Assembly (NCBI RefSeq): GCF_039542385.1
Contig: NZ_BAABIA010000003.1
Location: 682,001-746,000 of the forward strand
Direction of reading: 5' to 3'
Origin: Prosthecobacter algae
Lineage (GTDB): Bacteria > Verrucomicrobiota > Verrucomicrobiia > Verrucomicrobiales > Verrucomicrobiaceae
DNA: 64,000 bases
Of this stretch, positions 4,047 to 64,000 are shown piece by piece. Both the position numbers and the translations under genes were made by a program. Within the stretch, counting starts at the first letter, position 1; each line of letters starts with the position of its first letter. The notes below the pieces were generated by a model, which saw only the letters and a list, made by a program, of their open reading frames with translations, was not told the origin of the DNA and searched no databases.

Positions 4047-5396
4047 TCAGATCGCCCAGCCTTCGCGGTAGGTTTTGGTCAGCAGTTTGTTAGCTTCGGG
4101 GAAGTTTTTAAAGCTGAGGTTGGCCGCATCCCATTCCAGGATCTTCGGCTCCACAGGATCGCCCGTGCGGGAGTCAATGGGGCCGGGGCAGAAGCGCGTG
4201 GCCACATTGCCAAGTTGCACAGCCTCAGAGAGAGGACCTGCGTAGTGGAACCCATCGCTGGTTTTACTATTAGTTAGGCAGGCATCCACCCAGACATGCC
4301 AGTGGCTGAGGCCTTTTTCCTTCGGGTATTTGAAGGTGGTGAATTTATCCGTAGGGTACAGACGCGGACCGGCGACGTGACCGAGGACCATGTTCCCGCT
4401 TTCACCGATGAAGAGGGAGCCGCTCTTGGGCAGTTCCAGGTTATCCGGCATCTTGGCCAGCTTGCGGTCGGGGCGCAGGCCACCATCGCTCCAGGTCACT
4501 TTCAGGGTTTTGTCCGCCGTCAGGTCATTGCCAGGGAAGACAAATTCCACCTCTTCGGAGGTGGGCCAGATATGCTGATTGATGCCGCTGTTCCGCGCTG
4601 TGACGGTGAGGGGTGCATTCAGCCCCAGGGCCGTGAAAACGGGGTCCAGGATGTGGCAGCCGAAGTCGCCCATGGCACCACCGCCAAAGTCCTGCCAGTC
4701 ACGCCAGATGAAGGGGTGGTAGCAGGCGGCGTACTCGCGCATGGGCGCGCAGCCGATCCACAGGTCCCAGTTCACATTTTTCGGCACGGCGCTGCCCGGC
4801 ATGGGGTCCAGGCGCTTGTTGCGCTCGTTGCCTGTCACGGCCACCCAAGAGTATACTTCTTTGATTTTCCCAATGGCCCCTTCCTTCAGCAGGCGGGTGC
4901 CCAGGCGATACTCGATGGCGGAGTGGATCTGATTGCCCATCTGCGTGGTCACGCCAGCTTTTTCCGCCTCCAGGCGCATTTGGCGTGACTCCCACACGGT
5001 GTGGGCGAGGGGTTTTTGGCAATACACGTGCTTCTTCAATCGCAAGGCATCGATAGAGGCCTTCGCATGCATGTGGTCCGGTGTGCCCACGGAGACGGCA
5101 TCGAATTTATCGCCCAGTTGCGCGAACATTTCGCGGAAGTCGGCAAAGTGTGGGGTGCCCGGGAAGGCTTTGTCCACCTGATCAAAGCGGGTGCTGTCAA
5201 TGTCGCAAAAACCCACGTACTTCACCGCCGCATGCGCGCCGATGTTCTTAATGTCGCTGAAGGCCATGCCATTCGCGCCCACGGACACGACCTGGAGCTT
5301 CGAGTTCGGGTTGGCAGACTTTACCACCGCTGGAAAGGCGACGGAGGCAGCGGCGAGGGAGGTGTTTTTGAAAAAGGTGCGGCGGCTGACAGGCAT
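4047..5396 (-). CDS. Gfo/Idh/MocA family oxidoreductase with Tat leader
   Basis: The start at 5396 places a twin-arginine leader (MPVSRRTFFKNTSLAAASVAF) at the N-terminus, so the 449-residue product is probably exported folded with its NAD(P) cofactor. The Rossmann part shows VVSVGANGMAF followed by the CDID segment. The EKP-like motif is CQKPLAH, and the C-terminal domain contains DWLWIG-like and GAMGDFGCHILD segments typical of the family. The substrate, probably a sugar or polyol, cannot be read from the sequence. A longer in-frame start at 5477 would bury the leader and overlap the sufE-like gene. It lies 10 bp downstream of that SufE-like gene on the same strand. Confidence 0.9.
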   Translation of the reverse strand: MPVSRRTFFKNTSLAAASVAFPAVVKSANPNSKLQVVSVGANGMAFSDIKNIGAHAAVKYVGFCDIDSTRFDQVDKAFPGTPHFADFREMFAQLGDKFDAVSVGTPDHMHAKASIDALRLKKHVYCQKPLAHTVWESRQMRLEAEKAGVTTQMGNQIHSAIEYRLGTRLLKEGAIGKIKEVYSWVAVTGNERNKRLDPMPGSAVPKNVNWDLWIGCAPMREYAACYHPFIWRDWQDFGGGAMGDFGCHILDPVFTALGLNAPLTVTARNSGINQHIWPTSEEVEFVFPGNDLTADKTLKVTWSDGGLRPDRKLAKMPDNLELPKSGSLFIGESGNMVLGHVAGPRLYPTDKFTTFKYPKEKGLSHWHVWVDACLTNSKTSDGFHYAGPLSEAVQLGNVATRFCPGPIDSRTGDPVEPKILEWDAANLSFKNFPEANKLLTKTYREGWAI

Positions 5397-5406
5397 AGGC
5401 AAAGGA

Positions 5407-5829
5407 CTACGCCTGGGGGACCTGCGAGCTTGCAGCGGCCCAGTCACGCATGCGGGTGCGCATGGAGGCCAGTCCATTCAGCCGGGTGGGCGACAAAGCC
5501 TTATGGAAGGCGCATCCGACCCAGATTTCAGGCTCTACGGCCACCACCTCCGCCGGTTCCGAATCCGTGTAAAGGTGACACAAAAGAGCCACTAATCCCG
5601 CGACCATGGGCGAGTCTGCCGCGCAACGAAAATGGCAGCGCCCATCTCGCAGCTCCCCATGCAACCACACGCGCGAAACGCAGCCGGGGACGAGGAGATC
5701 GTCCGTGCGCAGGGTCTCGGGAAGCGTCACCGCTGGGATGAAAGAGGTGAGGGCAGAGAGGCGCTCCTGAACGTTTTCGATGAGGTTCAGGTCGGCGATG
5801 AGTTCGGTTTGTTTATCCCGCAGGGTCAT
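5407..5829 (-). CDS. SufE family protein (sulfur acceptor / Fe-S assembly accessory)
   Basis: The 140-residue product starting at MTLRDKQTEL has the SufE signature DLLVPGCVSRVWL, with the expected sulfur-accepting Cys at residue 50, then a DSPMVAGLVALLCHLY segment and a C-terminal LSPTRLNGLASMRTRM helix. SufE proteins accept persulfide from SufS-type desulfurases. No sufS or sufBCD is visible here, so it is an isolated copy and the partner is unknown. An in-frame start 30 bases upstream exists but adds residues not typical of the family. The gene is divergent from the SWIM gene. Confidence 0.85.
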   Translation of the reverse strand: MTLRDKQTELIADLNLIENVQERLSALTSFIPAVTLPETLRTDDLLVPGCVSRVWLHGELRDGRCHFRCAADSPMVAGLVALLCHLYTDSEPAEVVAVEPEIWVGCAFHKALSPTRLNGLASMRTRMRDWAAASSQVPQA

Positions 5830-54911: not shown

Positions 54912-54996
54912 GCCGGAGTGGCGGAATTGGTAGACGCGCCAGACTTAGGATCTGGTTGGGTAACTAGTGCAGGTTCGAGTCCTGTCTCCGGCACCA
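54912..54996 (+). tRNA. tRNA-Leu (UAG anticodon), integration site of the downstream element
   Basis: A class II tRNA with acceptor stem GCCGGAG (54912-54918) / CTCCGGC (54986-54992), discriminator A and an encoded CCA. The anticodon stem CCAGA/TCTGG holds the loop CTTAGGA with anticodon TAG. The T-arm is AGGTTCGAGTCCT. A tyrosine recombinase gene starts 114 bp downstream on the same strand, the standard layout of an element inserted at a tRNA 3' end. The CCA end may be the left attachment-site copy. Confidence 0.97.
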
Positions 54997-55077: not shown

Positions 55078-55093
55078 CGTTACACGTGTAACG
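55078..55093. promoter_or_regulatory. 16-bp perfect palindrome with ACACGTGT core before the integrase gene
   Basis: CGTTACACGTGTAACG is a perfect palindrome. It overlaps a possible -35 (TTGACG, 55074-55079) and ends 17 bp before the integrase start codon, with a weak -10 (TATCCC) about 16 bp further on. Its core ACACGTGT is shared with the 24-bp palindrome at 61550-61573. It is a candidate operator or parS-like site. Confidence 0.6.
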
Positions 55094-55110: not shown

Positions 55111-56283
55111 ATGCCCATTCGAAAGAGAAAGCTTCCTAGCGGAAAAATCGTCTACCAGCTCGACCTGGGGATGGTCGATGGGAAGCGAGTCCAGAAAAAC
55201 TATCCGACCGGACTGGCGGCAAAAACAGCGCAGGAAGATCATGAGAATGCCGCCGAAAGGCACGGCACCTCGCTGACTCATCTGACCTCAGCCGAAATCA
55301 CGGAAGTGCTGCTGGTAAGATCCAAGCTCAAGGATGCCGGGGCAACTTTGACTGAAGCTGCTGAGTTTTTCCTGAAGCATGGAGTGACCAAAGAGTCGAT
55401 CTCATTCGGGGCGATGGTGCAGCGATTTCTCAATGATAAGTACGAGCACTCCACGCCGAGATATCATCGGCAGCTCAAGGTGTCGCTGGGGGCTTTGAAA
55501 AATGAACTGGAGTCGAGGCCCGCGAATGAGATCCGGGGGCAGGACATCGAGAGATGGCTGAAGCGGAACAAGTGGGCACCGAAGACATGGGTGAACTATC
55601 TGGGCGATGCCTCGGCGCTTTTTTCCTGGGGAATCAAGAAGGGATACCTGTCGCTGAATCCATGTGCGGAAGTGGCAAAGCCGAAGCTCGGGGATGGCGA
55701 GATCGGCACGTTGACGGTCGAGCAATGCGAGCTGCTGCTGCGAGCGGCGGTCAAGGATCCGCAGGTGATCGGCTTTGTGGTGCTGGGCCTTTACGCGGGG
55801 CTGCGACCTGCGGAGATCGCGAGGCTGGATTGGAGCGCTGTGGATCTGGAGGCAGCGACGGTGGTGGTGGCAGGCAGCCAGGCGAAGACAAGAAGGCGGC
55901 GCATCGTGGACCTCAGTGAGAATGCAGTGGCCTGGCTGAAGGCCTCGGGACTGAAGCTGGAAGGGAAGATCACGGGCAAGTGGTGGGACGGGCGCTGGCG
56001 GGTATTCCGCAGCAAGCTGGGCTGGGATGCGGGCAACAGCGGCGATGGCTTGAGCCGGAACGAGAGGAAGAAAGCGCGAAAGGATCCTGAGCCTGCCCCC
56101 TTTGGGCGGTGGCCACACAACGCGCTGAGGCACACGTATGCCTCCATGCACTACGCGATGCACCAAAACGAAGCGCAACTGCAGACTCAGATGGGCCATG
56201 AGTCAGCAGCGATGTTGCATCGGCATTACCGGGCCTTGAAGACGAAGACGGATGCCTCCAAGTTTTGGGCGCTGAAGCCGTGA
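55111..56283 (+). CDS. int: Tyrosine recombinase (integrase)
   Basis: A 390-residue integrase. The N-terminal part (1-100) is basic, then a core-binding domain (about 98-185, FGAMVQRFLNDKY... and FSWGIKKGYLSLNPC) and the catalytic domain (about 200-385) follow. Catalytic residues: Arg232 (LYAGLRPAEIARLDW), Lys about 259, Arg340 (HNALRHTYAS), His363 (MGHESAAMLH) and Tyr373 (HRHYRALK). The position three residues before Arg340, normally His, is Asn337, with His336 one place further back; this HNALRHT form recurs in related integrases. It would catalyse site-specific insertion at the neighbouring tRNA-Leu gene. The ATG at 55111 has no clear ribosome binding site. Confidence 0.94.
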   Translation: MPIRKRKLPSGKIVYQLDLGMVDGKRVQKNYPTGLAAKTAQEDHENAAERHGTSLTHLTSAEITEVLLVRSKLKDAGATLTEAAEFFLKHGVTKESISFGAMVQRFLNDKYEHSTPRYHRQLKVSLGALKNELESRPANEIRGQDIERWLKRNKWAPKTWVNYLGDASALFSWGIKKGYLSLNPCAEVAKPKLGDGEIGTLTVEQCELLLRAAVKDPQVIGFVVLGLYAGLRPAEIARLDWSAVDLEAATVVVAGSQAKTRRRRIVDLSENAVAWLKASGLKLEGKITGKWWDGRWRVFRSKLGWDAGNSGDGLSRNERKKARKDPEPAPFGRWPHNALRHTYASMHYAMHQNEAQLQTQMGHESAAMLHRHYRALKTKTDASKFWALKP

Positions 56284-57601: not shown

Positions 57602-58474
57602 ATGACGCTTAAAATATTCGACTTTAACTCCCAGGCTGTGCGTGTGGTGGAAAGGGGCGCGGAGCCTTGGTTTGTGGCGGCGGACGTCTGCCGAATTTTG
57701 GAGATCTCCAACCCTAGCGAAGCAATCAAGGCGCTGGATGATGACGAAAAGATGACCCTAGATAATACTGAGGGTCATTCAGGGAAACGCGGTGGGGCTC
57801 AGTGCTTCAACATCATTTCCGAATCAGGCCTCTACGCTCTGATCTTCAAGAGTCGGAAGGCTGAGGCTAAGAGCTTCCGCAAATGGGTTACCGCTGAGGT
57901 GCTGCCGAGTCTGCGCAAGAGGGGCGAGTACATCGCGGCTGAAGGGATGGGGGGCGTGCCGGACCGAGCTGGGACCCTTCCCGTCCTACGCTACATTGAA
58001 GAGGTGGGTAAAAATTGGCCCATCGAAAGACAGATCGAATTTGGCTTTTTGGTTCGTCGCTACTCCAAAGCCATGGGCTGTGTGTTCCAGGTGGAAGAGG
58101 TGGATACGTATGGCCGCTGCTTTGTTTTCCCCAGGGAAATTCTCGACACTTTGCGGCTGAAGTTTGGGAGGCTGAAACAGCTTCCAGACAGTGATGCCGT
58201 CGAGATGGAGCGCCTGCTCGAAATGATCCAAAAAAGCGGTGCAAGCGGTGAAGTGCTGGACGCCCAATTTGTCCGGGACATGGCCCAGATGAACGGGTAC
58301 TTCCCGCAGATTTTCAGGAAGGACACAAGCATTGCGAGCCATCGAAGCGCCTTCGGGAAGCTGGCCGAGAAGTTCAACGGACGAATCTTCCCAAGTGGTT
58401 ACCAGCTCATCAGCCGGGGCGGAGCGGTGAGGAAGTACCAGATCAACAAGGTCGATGAGATGGCTCTCGTGTGA
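57602..58474 (+). CDS. BRO family antirepressor-like protein (Bro-N domain)
   Basis: A 290-residue protein with an N-terminal Bro-N domain (about 1-120): WFVAADVCRILEISNPSEAI, then ESGLYALIFKSRKAEAKSF and RKWVTAEVLPSLRKRG (shown here in pieces of 20 or fewer). These proteins occur in phages and DNA viruses and bind DNA or act as antirepressors. The C-terminal 170 residues (IEEVGKNWPIERQIEFGFLV and on) do not match a common KilA/ANT domain that I recognise. It is the first gene of the rightward cluster, consistent with an early phage-type function. Confidence 0.85.
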   Translation: MTLKIFDFNSQAVRVVERGAEPWFVAADVCRILEISNPSEAIKALDDDEKMTLDNTEGHSGKRGGAQCFNIISESGLYALIFKSRKAEAKSFRKWVTAEVLPSLRKRGEYIAAEGMGGVPDRAGTLPVLRYIEEVGKNWPIERQIEFGFLVRRYSKAMGCVFQVEEVDTYGRCFVFPREILDTLRLKFGRLKQLPDSDAVEMERLLEMIQKSGASGEVLDAQFVRDMAQMNGYFPQIFRKDTSIASHRSAFGKLAEKFNGRIFPSGYQLISRGGAVRKYQINKVDEMALV

Positions 58475-60991: not shown

Positions 60992-61417
60992 ATGCCACTG
61001 GACGAACAACTGGAGCGCGAATGCGCGAGGGCTGTGGAGGCCGAGGTCACCATGCGTGAGCATGTGAGGCGGATGGAGGAACTGTATCCGAAAGCATTGG
61101 TGGTGACGATGGCCATTCGTCATTCAATGATTGAGATGCTGAGCTTTGTGAACGCCATTCGGAATGGTCTGGGAGCCAAGCGGATGGTGGGTGAAGCCAG
61201 CCAGGGGGTGGCACAAAAGAGTGTCGAAGATACCCCACTTTTTGCGGCGCTGCCGATGTCCGCAAGGGGCAGCTCTGAAACACTGGCCACTGCTCAAGAT
61301 TGGAAAGAGATCTGGACCGGGGATCGGATCGCTAAGGTGCCGGACCCGAAGAAGGTGGAGGCCTCGCTGCACCGGGCCGGGGATCACACTCAGGACAGAG
61401 AGGAGGGCGAGGTTTGA
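60992..61417 (+). CDS. Hypothetical 141-residue element protein
   Basis: A mainly helical, charged protein (LEREC ARAVEAEVTMREHV in its first part) with an acidic C-terminus (HTQDREEGEV). No domain recognised. Its stop overlaps the next start, a TTG, by four bases (TTGA), with a strong AGGAGG ribosome binding site in the end of this gene. Confidence 0.7.
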   Translation: MPLDEQLERECARAVEAEVTMREHVRRMEELYPKALVVTMAIRHSMIEMLSFVNAIRNGLGAKRMVGEASQGVAQKSVEDTPLFAALPMSARGSSETLATAQDWKEIWTGDRIAKVPDPKKVEASLHRAGDHTQDREEGEV

Positions 61418-62163
61418 GCAAGGCGCGTGAACAATACGAAGCCCATGTGGGTGGCACGCTCGCCAAGGTCTGGCGGCGTGAAGGTGAGTTCCTCGTCGTG
61501 GATCCTGCGGATTTTAACACGCCGCTGACGGAGGTGATCGGACGGGAGGCGGGGTCGACACGTGTCGACCCCGACTGGCTGCCGAGCGACCAGCAAGAGC
61601 TGAGGGGGATGGATCGCGAGGAGCTGATCGCACGCGTGCTGCAACTCCTGGAGGAACTCGATGATGCTCGCAGGCAGGCGGTGAATACAGCGCTGAACTT
61701 CGTCTTTGGCAAAGGGCCGGATCCGCTGACGGCGCTCGAGCGGCTGTTCATGCTGGCACGCGCTCAGCACCAGGCGCATGACTGGAACATGAGGCCCTGC
61801 GAGATGGCGCAGCTTTTTGGGCGTTCCAAACAGGACTGGCAGCTCATTGAAAAGGAGGTGGTGTGTGAATTGGTGGATCGCTACAGCCGCTCCGAATTTG
61901 TGATGAGCGGTGGCAAATCCGCCAGCGCCCAGATTGCCTATAGCAAGGCCCAGAAGGGCAACAAGCACCGTGCGCATGGCCGGAAGGCTGGTGATGAGAT
62001 GCCTGCCCTGCCACCGAAGTGCGACGGCCTGCCCACGATCAGCGCACGGGCCAAGCATCTAGCGGAGCTGCAACGCAAGCAGGCTGAGCGGGAGCGCCTG
62101 GCGAAGCTTTGCAACTGCCACCCTGACGAGATCGACCTCGACCGCATCGACCTGGAAGACTGA
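61414..62163 (+). CDS. Hypothetical 249-residue element protein, TTG start
   Basis: The frame is read from a TTG at 61414, supported by AGGAGG at 61401-61406 (7-nt spacing) and the four-base TTGA overlap; no ATG lies in frame until well inside. The product is acidic to basic with long helices (ELIARVLQLLEELDDARRQA) and MRPCEMAQLFGRSKQDWQLI, an HTH-like stretch around residues 125-150, then a basic segment KGNKHRAHGRKAG. I do not recognise a family. It contains the 24-bp palindrome and precedes parB by 30 bp. Confidence 0.72.
   Translation: MSKAREQYEAHVGGTLAKVWRREGEFLVVDPADFNTPLTEVIGREAGSTRVDPDWLPSDQQELRGMDREELIARVLQLLEELDDARRQAVNTALNFVFGKGPDPLTALERLFMLARAQHQAHDWNMRPCEMAQLFGRSKQDWQLIEKEVVCELVDRYSRSEFVMSGGKSASAQIAYSKAQKGNKHRAHGRKAGDEMPALPPKCDGLPTISARAKHLAELQRKQAERERLAKLCNCHPDEIDLDRIDLED
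61550..61573. promoter_or_regulatory. 24-bp perfect palindrome with ACACGTGT core, parS-like candidate
   Basis: Each 12-bp arm reads CGGGGTCGACAC inward to the centre and is matched without a mismatch. It lies within the coding sequence of the preceding gene. A random 24-bp perfect palindrome is expected about 0.004 times in a window of this length. Its CACGTG centre is also the centre of the chromosomal parS consensus, and it is 620 bp before the ParB-type gene. Binding is not shown. Confidence 0.6.
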
Positions 62164-62193: not shown

Positions 62194-64000
62194 ATGATCG
62201 CCCAAACTGAACCGATGAATCAGGGGGAGGAAGCTCCCCAAATCCAGTACCTCGAATACGTGGAGCTGCACGCCAGCCCCACCAATCCGCGCAAGCACTT
62301 TGATGAAGGGCCAATGCAGGAGCTGAGTGAAAACATTCATGAGCACGGCGTGCGCATGCCGCTGCTGGCCAGGCCAAGCAAAGACAAGCCGGGGAGCTAT
62401 GAGATCGTCGCTGGGGAGCGGCGCTTTCGTGCCACGGGCCTGGCACTGGAGAGGCTCGCTAAAGAGGAAGATGAAGACCGCTATGCCAAGCTCTTCAAGC
62501 TGCCTGTGATCGTCCAGGATCTGGACGACACCACCGTCCTGGAGCTGCAACTGATCGAGAATCTACAGCGGCAGGATCTGACAGCCATGGAAGAGGCCCG
62601 AGGCTACCAGCGACTGCTGGACCTGCCTGGTGGCGAGTACACGCCGCAGAAGATCGCCCAGAAAATCAGCAAGAGCGTGGATACCGTGCTGCTGAAGCTG
62701 AAGATGCTGAAAGCCCCGGAGGTGCTTCAAAAAGCCCTGGAGGAAGGCAAGGTTTCTGAGAGACATCTGGTGCTGGTCGCCTCGGTCCCGACTGAGAAGT
62801 TCCGCAAAGAATGCGCGGCCAAGGTTCTGGGTGGTGTTTGGAACTGGCAGGAGCAAGCCGACAGGCCGTGGAGCGTCCGGGAAACAGCGGACTACATCTC
62901 GCAGAATTACCGCATGTCTCTCAAGGGGGTGCTTTGGAGCCTCGACGACCAGACGTTGGTGCCAGCGGCGGGGGCCTGCAGCCAGTGCCCGCACTTTGCC
63001 AAAAAGGCGGCGGAGCAAGATCAGGAACTGGCGAGCAGCCTGGGCAACGGGCGCGGCCAGACGGACCCCATGACCTGCCTGCACCCTGAGTGCTGGCGCA
63101 AAAAACAGGATGCGACCCTGAAGGTGATGAAGGCAGCCGAGAAAGGTGGCGAGGTGAAGGTGATGAAGCCTGCCGACCAAGAGAAGGTGATCAGCGACAG
63201 CGGCCAGATTCAACCAGGCGCGAAGATGGTGAAGCTGGATGACAAGCTGCCCTACGAGATCCTGGGCCACTACAATGATGCGAAGGCCCCGACCTGGCGC
63301 GAAGTCATCGGACCTGTGCCCCCAGCGGGCACGGTGCAGATCGCCAATACCAAGCATGCAGGCCTGGTCGAACTCATCGACAAGAAAACGGCCATCGAGG
63401 CAGCCAAGGGCGGCAAGCACGCCCCCATCTTTGCCCGAGTGATGCTGAACGGGAAGAAAGAGAAGACGGAAGCCGAGGTCAAGCAGCGGGAGAAAGAGCT
63501 GTTCGCCCAAAAGGTCGAGCAACGGGAGCGATTCGTCCTCTTTGATCACCTAGCCGAAGTGGCTGCGGAAAAGGGTGGGACGATGGAAGCGGCCCTGGTG
63601 ACCTTCGACATCGTGCTGCTGGACTCTGGCATGGACGGCTGCCGATTCATGGCGGAGTGGCTGAAGCTGGAGGTCCAAGCGCCGAAGAAAGAGAGCCTCA
63701 ACCAGCAGCACTACCGGGAAGCGGTGCTGAAGCATGTGATCGAGCGCGACACCTCAAAGCATGAGGTCGAGACTCTGATCATGCTGGCCGCCATTGCCAA
63801 GTGGGTGAAGATCACGGGCATCGGCAGCGGCCTGGTGAAGGCCGTCTACAGCCACTACGGCTTCGATGAGAAAACGATCCATGCCCTGGCAAAGTCGCAG
63901 ATCGAGGCGGAGCTGGCTGCGAAGGCCGCGAAGAAAAAGCCGAAGCTGAAGAGCAAAGGCCGAGATCTGGAGCCTGCCGCGGCGACCGAGAAGGCGAATG
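62194..64000 (+). CDS. parB: ParB/Spo0J-type CTPase partition protein, 3' end outside the window
   Basis: An open frame of 602 codons begins at the ATG at 62194 and is still open at the window end. The N-terminal ParB fold has NPRKHFDEG (31-39), the CTP-binding box GERRFRA (74-80) and ENLQRQDLTAMEEA (122-135). A helix-turn-helix follows at about 150-172 (TPQKIAQKISKSVDTVLLKL). Four Cys (262, 265, 295, 300) in CSQCPHF and CLHPECW suggest a zinc-binding insertion. The rest is long and basic/charged (KKKPKLKSKGRD near the end). ParB proteins load at parS and spread on DNA with CTP. No parA gene is visible, so it is an orphan here or parA lies further right. Confidence 0.9.
   Translation, partial: MIAQTEPMNQGEEAPQIQYLEYVELHASPTNPRKHFDEGPMQELSENIHEHGVRMPLLARPSKDKPGSYEIVAGERRFRATGLALERLAKEEDEDRYAKLFKLPVIVQDLDDTTVLELQLIENLQRQDLTAMEEARGYQRLLDLPGGEYTPQKIAQKISKSVDTVLLKLKMLKAPEVLQKALEEGKVSERHLVLVASVPTEKFRKECAAKVLGGVWNWQEQADRPWSVRETADYISQNYRMSLKGVLWSLDDQTLVPAAGACSQCPHFAKKAAEQDQELASSLGNGRGQTDPMTCLHPECWRKKQDATLKVMKAAEKGGEVKVMKPADQEKVISDSGQIQPGAKMVKLDDKLPYEILGHYNDAKAPTWREVIGPVPPAGTVQIANTKHAGLVELIDKKTAIEAAKGGKHAPIFARVMLNGKKEKTEAEVKQREKELFAQKVEQRERFVLFDHLAEVAAEKGGTMEAALVTFDIVLLDSGMDGCRFMAEWLKLEVQAPKKESLNQQHYREAVLKHVIERDTSKHEVETLIMLAAIAKWVKITGIGSGLVKAVYSHYGFDEKTIHALAKSQIEAELAAKAAKKKPKLKSKGRDLEPAAATEKAN

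Follow-up and report, generated by a model that had tools for sequence, protein, structure and literature searches.

A window of 64,000 nucleotides from Prosthecobacter algae, corresponding to bases 682001–746000 of contig C3 in a genome of 6.12 Mb and 28 contigs, contains a perfect palindrome in the gene directly before parB. The question raised by this locus is whether the palindrome is the DNA site of the adjacent ParB and, if so, what kind of site it is. The palindrome search showed that the 24-bp sequence CGGGGTCGACACGTGTCGACCCCG at 61550–61573 has arms matching at 12 of 12 positions, with a single match in the window at up to 3 mismatches. It lies within the reading frame of the pre-parB gene. 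The perfect palindrome and its embedding in coding sequence had both been claimed in the preliminary description and were borne out. CGGGGTCGACACGTGTCGACCCCG is the longest spacer-free perfect palindrome of the window. One palindrome with 12-bp arms was obtained in 100 order-3 Markov copies of the window, indicating that CGGGGTCGACACGTGTCGACCCCG by itself is approximately a 1-in-100 event per window. The palindrome alone is less extreme than the earlier wording "far beyond chance" implies. The core of the site is 16–18 bp, represented by the 18-mer GGTCGACACGTGTCGACC at 61553–61570; this unit was conserved among the copies, and the outermost bases of the 24-mer were variable. The recurrence of the 18-mer in the prophage, more than the length of the palindrome, settles that the site is real.

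The element that carries the palindrome is a largely complete prophage, integrated at tRNA-Leu and reaching the end of contig C3. The gene order from tRNA-Leu is integrase, Bro-N antirepressor, smaller genes, the palindrome-bearing gene, and parB (Table 1). No Pfam family above the cut-off and no PHROG match was found for the pre-parB gene. The parB gene starts 30 bp past the end of this gene and runs beyond the window, ending at window-equivalent 64482. Past the window, a PF16473 3′-5′ exonuclease-like protein, a DUF3850 protein and two proteins with weak primase-type PHROG matches were annotated, and further on an N6/N4 DNA methylase, terminase, portal, head protease, and major head protein. 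The 3′ end of tRNA-Leu is repeated on contig C8 near base 1500 (L339) and is followed there by a decayed integrase start; no tRNA was called by ARAGORN at this copy. The right end of the prophage is therefore probably on C8, beside an older remnant of another element, in an inferred contig order. A second perfect palindrome with a ACACGTGT centre, CGTTACACGTGTAACG, was observed at 55078–55093 between tRNA-Leu and the integrase, and is gone from the decayed copy of the tRNA-integrase region on C8. It does not match the family form of the site described below and was left out of the counts.

Table 1. Features of the prophage in the window (positions are those of the window).
Feature	Position	Strand	Evidence
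tRNA-Leu (tag); 3′ end is the probable attachment core	54912..54996	+	tRNA call and recurrence of the 3′ end
Tyrosine integrase of the prophage	55111..56283	+	Pfam, PHROG
Bro-N antirepressor-like gene of the prophage	57602..58474	+	Pfam, PHROG
Pre-parB gene of 249 aa, listed with a TTG start; site at codons GSTRVD	61414..62163	+	ORF list
Palindromic site, first of four prophage copies	61550..61573		Palindrome search, genome-wide pattern search, copy comparison
parB, first 602 of 762 codons; ParB_N, HTH_ParB, four-cysteine region, long C-terminal part	62194..63999	+	Pfam, PHROG, structure

The genome-wide search for GGTCGACACGTGTCGACC at up to 3 mismatches gave four places in the whole 6.1-Mb genome, all within the prophage; the backward-read control gave 2 places in the genome at the same tolerance. 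Three copies are exact (C3:743553, C3:758578, and C3:774618, the latter two at window-equivalents 76578 and 92618), and one at C3:751768 (window-equivalent 69768) is degenerate with 2 mismatches. One exact copy lies within the pre-parB gene and another within the portal gene; the third is downstream of the head genes, between two ORFs. The idea of one site thus had to be given up, as the prophage has several. As in a parS system, a short palindrome lies near parB and is restricted to its replicon. The host's own parS candidate is a single TGTTCCACGTGGAACA on contig C10, unlike the prophage site. The backward control of this search also gave one match, so the assignment of TGTTCCACGTGGAACA rests on its perfect palindrome.

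A kinship search of 96 genomes showed that 6, including the own genome, matched the 18-mer at up to 2 mismatches. At least 9 genomes matched the backward control among the matches listed, and single near matches (1–2 mismatches) therefore carry no weight. Exact copies numbered 3 in the own genome, 3 in a second genome, of the same genus (G050, on one 34-kb contig), and 1 in another (G026). In IMG/VR, the exact 18-mer was found in 10 stretches on 6 contigs. The three contigs longer than 34 kb all encode a relative of the window ParB, with identities of 55% over 49 aa (G001, cut by the contig edge), 51% (G002), and 50% (G003). No ParB was found in the portion searched of the three shorter contigs (4.7, 5.8, and 22.2 kb). 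In these three long contigs and in the window phage, a copy lies at the homologous GSTRVD codons of the gene before parB, and the six site codons are identical in all four genes. Among invariant residues with at least four possible codons, the codon was kept in all four genes at 5 of 5 positions within the site versus 17 of 61 outside. Another copy is located directly past the 3′ end of the portal homologue in G001, G002, and G003; the corresponding copy of the window phage is inside the portal gene, not past its end. Among close relatives with parB, which the preliminary description had named as a check, these three phages keep the site; in L064 (ParB 48% identical, different recognition helix), no site of the family form was found in 12.3 kb. 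A chance palindrome, or the by-product of a conserved peptide, accords with one 12-bp-arm palindrome per 100 Markov windows and with the GSTRVD peptide kept in 4/4 homologues, but is hardly credible and already contradicted by a recurrence that is restricted to the prophage, by further copies, one within the portal gene and one between ORFs, and by codons fixed beyond what the peptide demands.

In 84,980 species genomes, the 18-mer was found in 11 stretches, 4 of them in two Verrucomicrobia MAGs. The other seven (Collinsella, Rubrivirga, and Micromonospora) were set aside because six have arms of at least 18, which are terminator-like or an assembly fold-back, and in the seventh the arms measure 10. 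One Collinsella MAG has long palindromes around this 18-bp centre near its contig ends (L018, L025, and L028), which are probably terminators or a repeat.

The protein encoded by parB belongs to the ParB/CTPase fold by domains, nucleotide boxes, and structure. Pfam showed ParB_N (E 1.1e-19) and HTH_ParB (E 2.8e-13). The phmmer search gave 13 distinct PDB sequences, of which Spo0J, Noc, and ParB were the best, and KorB (8qa8) was found with an E-value of 2.6e-6. The AlphaFold2 model of residues 1–602 had a mean pLDDT of 89.7. Foldseek on this model gave ParB 7bnk (E 6.4e-14), ParB 6t1f_D (target TM 0.79), Noc 7nfu_B (target TM 0.77), and KorB 8qa9 (E 1.3e-9, target TM 0.68). The nucleotide boxes of the window protein are GERRFRA and ENLQR. 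The core residues of GERRxRA and ENLQR were invariant in 20 aligned members, as were C262, C265, C295, and C300, and these four cysteines could form a metal site. Over 83 relatives, strict patterns of the two nucleotide boxes fitted 67 and 65, and that of the four cysteines 81. Neither contig C3 nor any of six phage records, which include fragments, gave a match to ParA (PF13614). The ParA-binding motif was found in 0 of 83 phage ParBs; the chromosomal ParB of the host has it as LGKGL. The cognate ParA and ParA-binding motif of a ParABS system were thus not detected for this ParB.

The search of viral contigs with the single window ParB gave no match. An alignment query of three ParBs gave 144 viral stretches with relatives, and the best 80 of the 144 were used. 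Sister palindromes were found in these loci: GTGCACACGTGTGCAC, GTGCAGACGTCTGCAC, mixed forms in many, and GTCGAAACGTTTCGAC-like ones in L126. The family form GTNNANACGTNTNNAC was set at a minimum of 9 of 10 fixed letters and 6 of 8 pairs. The preliminary description had taken CACGTG as the centre; the inner ACGT is general, but CACGTG itself is not. The form was found 122 times in the 80 ParB loci (1.25 Mb) and 3, 0, 0, 0, and 3 times in five shuffles, these loci having also served to define it and including near-duplicates (72 distinct).

A test set was taken from the 80 loci of a later search, of which 29 were retained and the rest dropped, their contigs being already used; the choice was made by contig name and verified afterwards with 31-mers. 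The 31-mers common to test and earlier loci were below 2%, except for L304 (44%), and L312 and L313 are near-duplicates. The test set showed 52 sites of the form, compared with 0–2 in ten shuffles and, for 59 rearrangements of the same fixed letters, a best of 9 and a median of 1. At least one site was present in 24 of the 29 loci, at least one outside parB in 19, and at least two outside parB in 10, where parB was not located by the script in L300 and L327 and the single L327 site was counted as outside parB. These loci are new data but not independent origins, since they share the same ParB family. The top two matches of the ParB-only search were Acidovorax phage Aval and Variovorax phage VarioGold, which have 5 and 6 sites over 39 kb, respectively. 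The VarioGold sites are at 5756, 15561, 21002, 31899, 37621, and 37753 of OP296522.

Only some members of the phage ParB family have sites of this form. It was missing from 22 of 83 ParB loci (80 viral, Aval, VarioGold, and the window), and 43 had none outside parB, the loci being stretches and not whole genomes. L064 lacks it in 12.3 kb, and in Verrucomicrobiota no site of the form was found in the 11.6–20 kb surrounding eight long ParBs of greater divergence or two chromosomal ones. Three loci without the form have other palindromes (L066, L142, and L107). In L142, whose ParB carries V as its first recognition residue, two GCGTCACGTGACGC palindromes lie 24 bp apart at 5363–5400; this pair is possibly another site variant. 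Six genomes from a single Verrucomicrobiota family (f8; L251–L256) have a second, long ParB (open frames of 537–603 aa) beside the one of chromosomal type, and no site of the form was found near it.

The comparison of ORFs (at least 70 aa, E 1e-4) showed that ParB is the sole pair common to the window prophage and Aval, and likewise to the window prophage and VarioGold. The site is therefore present with this ParB family across phages that have no other detectable common gene. Its outer bases vary from one ParB lineage to another. The exact sister 16-mer GTGCACACGTGTGCAC was found on 48 viral contigs, of which 27 encode this ParB family at an E-value of 1.7e-131 or better, 6 of these being already in the defining set. 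No ParB was seen on the other 21, which comprise 12 contigs shorter than 17 kb and nine of 25–207 kb; among the nine, G115 has a ParB_N match. An exception to the link between site and ParB is G109, a 77-kb viral contig with no ParB_N or HTH_ParB match despite eight exact GTGCACACGTGTGCAC copies (stretches L145, L146, L189, L190, L201, and L204). The control palindrome TGCGACACGTGTCGCA was found on contigs of which 0 of 6 encode this ParB. It is itself repeated as TTTGCGACACGTGTCGCAAA or near forms (L210–L216), with 11 copies on 6 contigs, four of them in L214 and three in another. TGCGACACGTGTCGCA is a poor control because it recurs in phages on its own, and the 59 rearrangements take its place.

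The position and letters of the site are also linked to ParB. The site is inside parB in 52 of 83 loci, commonly over the SADVCTD codons of the cysteine region. Of 30 non-redundant genes whose peptide has Ala at this place, 29 use the codon GCA, versus 4.0 (sd 1.8) expected from their own usage. The same test in the test set gave a weak result (3 of 8 versus 1.2 expected), so this constraint is not universal. SADVCTD is missing from the window-type ParBs, and the gene next to parB carries the site instead. When sites outside parB are considered, window-type ParBs have CG as letters 3–4 in 15 of 16 half-sites and L126 has it in 5 of 8, and the remaining ParBs have GC there in 131 of 146. At the places equivalent to Caulobacter 173, 179, 184, and 201, the window type carries V, K, K, and R, and L126 carries R, R, R, and M. 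According to the available sections of PMC7383237, G1 of parS is read by R173 and C6 of NBS by R201. This ParB/Noc specificity code was set aside as a predictor of the site, which it does not fit simply, the window site having T1 and A6 (numbering by hand).

The site might instead be read by another DNA-binding protein of the phage or host, such as a repressor or replication protein, and merely travel with ParB. G109, with its sister sites and no ParB detected, would agree with this, as would the unlike palindrome TGCGACACGTGTCGCA, which is likewise repeated in phages without this ParB. We regard such a reader as unlikely, given that ParB is the sole ORF common to the window prophage and Aval or VarioGold, that the site is inside or beside parB, and that its letters vary with the ParB lineage. 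Sister sites accompany the same kind of ParB in viruses of quite different bacteria, so a viral ParB that acts as a DNA clamp probably lands on the palindrome. It is likely that the palindrome is the predicted recognition and loading site of the adjacent ParB of the same prophage, and that it is phage-specific, dispersed, and of the parS class, as judged from sequence comparison.

The phage site was compared with known systems. Like chromosomal parS, it is a 16-bp palindrome with an ACGT centre beside or inside parB, and its putative reader would be a ParB with a CTPase fold and HTH. The outer letters differ (GTCGACAC versus TGTTTCAC per half). Agreement with the canonical parS TGTTNCACGTGAAACA was found at the inner letters only, and the preliminary description was correct that the flanks are unlike known parS. 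The phage site also differs from chromosomal ParABS in being spread over the phage genome with no ParA found. Noc and its NBS resemble the phage system in a ParB paralogue without ParA, a 16-bp site, and several loading sites per replicon (PMC7383237 and PMC8429893, in the parts available). The phage ParB differs from Noc in being phage-borne and in its long C-terminal part with four cysteines; instead of the Noc combination Q173, K179, K184, and R201 with A1/C6, the phage has V, K, K, and R with T1/A6 (numbering by hand). Orphan phage ParB-CTPase proteins belong to the same broad group, with a ParB fold, prophage encoding, and no ParA-binding motif, as far as the available text of PMC12704722 goes. 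That text gives no cognate DNA site, and palindromes go unmentioned in the main text of the paper; a site class for a phage family is proposed here.

The proposal of a new parS class specific to this ParB stood insofar as the site is kept with parB in close phages and sister sites occur with distant ParBs; a centromere role became less likely, as no ParA was found. The site could still be a centromere proper, that is, the dispersed parS of an excised or plasmid-like phage whose ParB recruits a host ParA, as in the prophage-plasmid N15. The IR1-4 sites of N15 are scattered over its genome. N15 shares with the window phage a phage-encoded ParB-type protein (SopB) and several separate inverted-repeat sites, four in N15 (PMC7205306, sections available). 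ParB together with multiple dispersed palindromes would fit a centromere, and the host has ParA-type ATPases (8 PF13614 matches, 7 over the cut-off). N15, however, is a plasmid prophage with SopA, and its IR letters differ; the window phage has its own integrase and is integrated beside a tRNA, so its lysogen needs no partition. PF13614 is also absent from the prophage contig and the six phage records, and the ParA-binding motif that the host ParB has is in none of the phage ParBs. A centromere is thus improbable. A role in gene control or DNA organisation is more likely than ParA-driven partition, because neither a ParA gene nor a ParA-binding motif was found.

KorB of plasmid RK2 is, by analogy, the nearest functional model for the phage ParB. 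According to the accessible part of PMC11790492, KorB, which is related to ParB, starts to slide at a 16-bp operator (OB) and silences at a distance. KorB/OB and the phage system are alike in a ParA-independent ParB clamp, a 16-bp operator, and a long reach (PMC11790492, same part), and differ in that the phage sites are often within genes and the sequence similarity is weak. The sites could therefore be KorB-like operators that chiefly silence phage promoters near and far, without wider coating or organising. KorB is the closest regulatory relative by structure and by sequence, its operator acts from 45 bp to more than 1 kb (PMC11790492, in the part consulted), and 4 of the 11 sites of Aval and VarioGold lie between annotated genes. 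The other 7 are within genes, however, and 0 of 11 lie between the repressor and its divergent neighbour. Pure silencing operators are therefore a possibility to be taken seriously, though a tentative one.

The preferred clamp system would work as follows. Each HTH of a ParB dimer would read one half-site, and ParB would close through its ParB/CTPase fold as a nucleotide-dependent clamp. The clamp may then depart from the site and slide, and a few dispersed sites could allow much of the approximately 40-kb phage genome to be coated. Palindromes of 16–18 bp are dispersed over the phage genome and show DNA-level constraint inside coding sequence. The coat might serve to control phage genes or to organise phage DNA during replication, comparable with KorB, Noc, and VirB on their replicons. 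In both lineages examined, parB is located among DNA-metabolism genes: the exonuclease-like and primase-like genes in the window phage, and genes for a ssDNA-binding protein and a nucleotide kinase with which parB is grouped in VarioGold (PMC9658991, available part). This location fits a role after induction. The gene order around parB suggests that ParB works on phage DNA that is replicating or has just been excised, or influences the expression of that DNA. On a wider scale, temperate phages of Verrucomicrobia and Proteobacteria may, with about equal chances for and against, share a widespread ParA-independent ParB clamp system with its own parS-class sites, one in or beside parB and several scattered. 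Its clamps would cover the phage DNA in cis, organising it or marking it for replication or gene control, and the site would diversify in step with the recognition helix from one phage lineage to another.

According to the part of PMC12704722 available, many phages encode orphan ParBs, whose DNA targets and roles are for the most part still to be established. None of the literature searched, which did not extend to preprints and most subscription papers, prints the window 16-mer or the four sister strings. The recurrent site that travels with the phage ParB family is real, and it is probably a variant of the parS kind. A site class is thus proposed for a sizeable phage ParB family, including those of Aval and VarioGold, and its natural variants follow the protein lineage. 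The proposed sites make the binding, CTP loading, and purpose of phage ParBs directly testable, and they could yield new orthogonal ParB/site pairs for DNA labelling.
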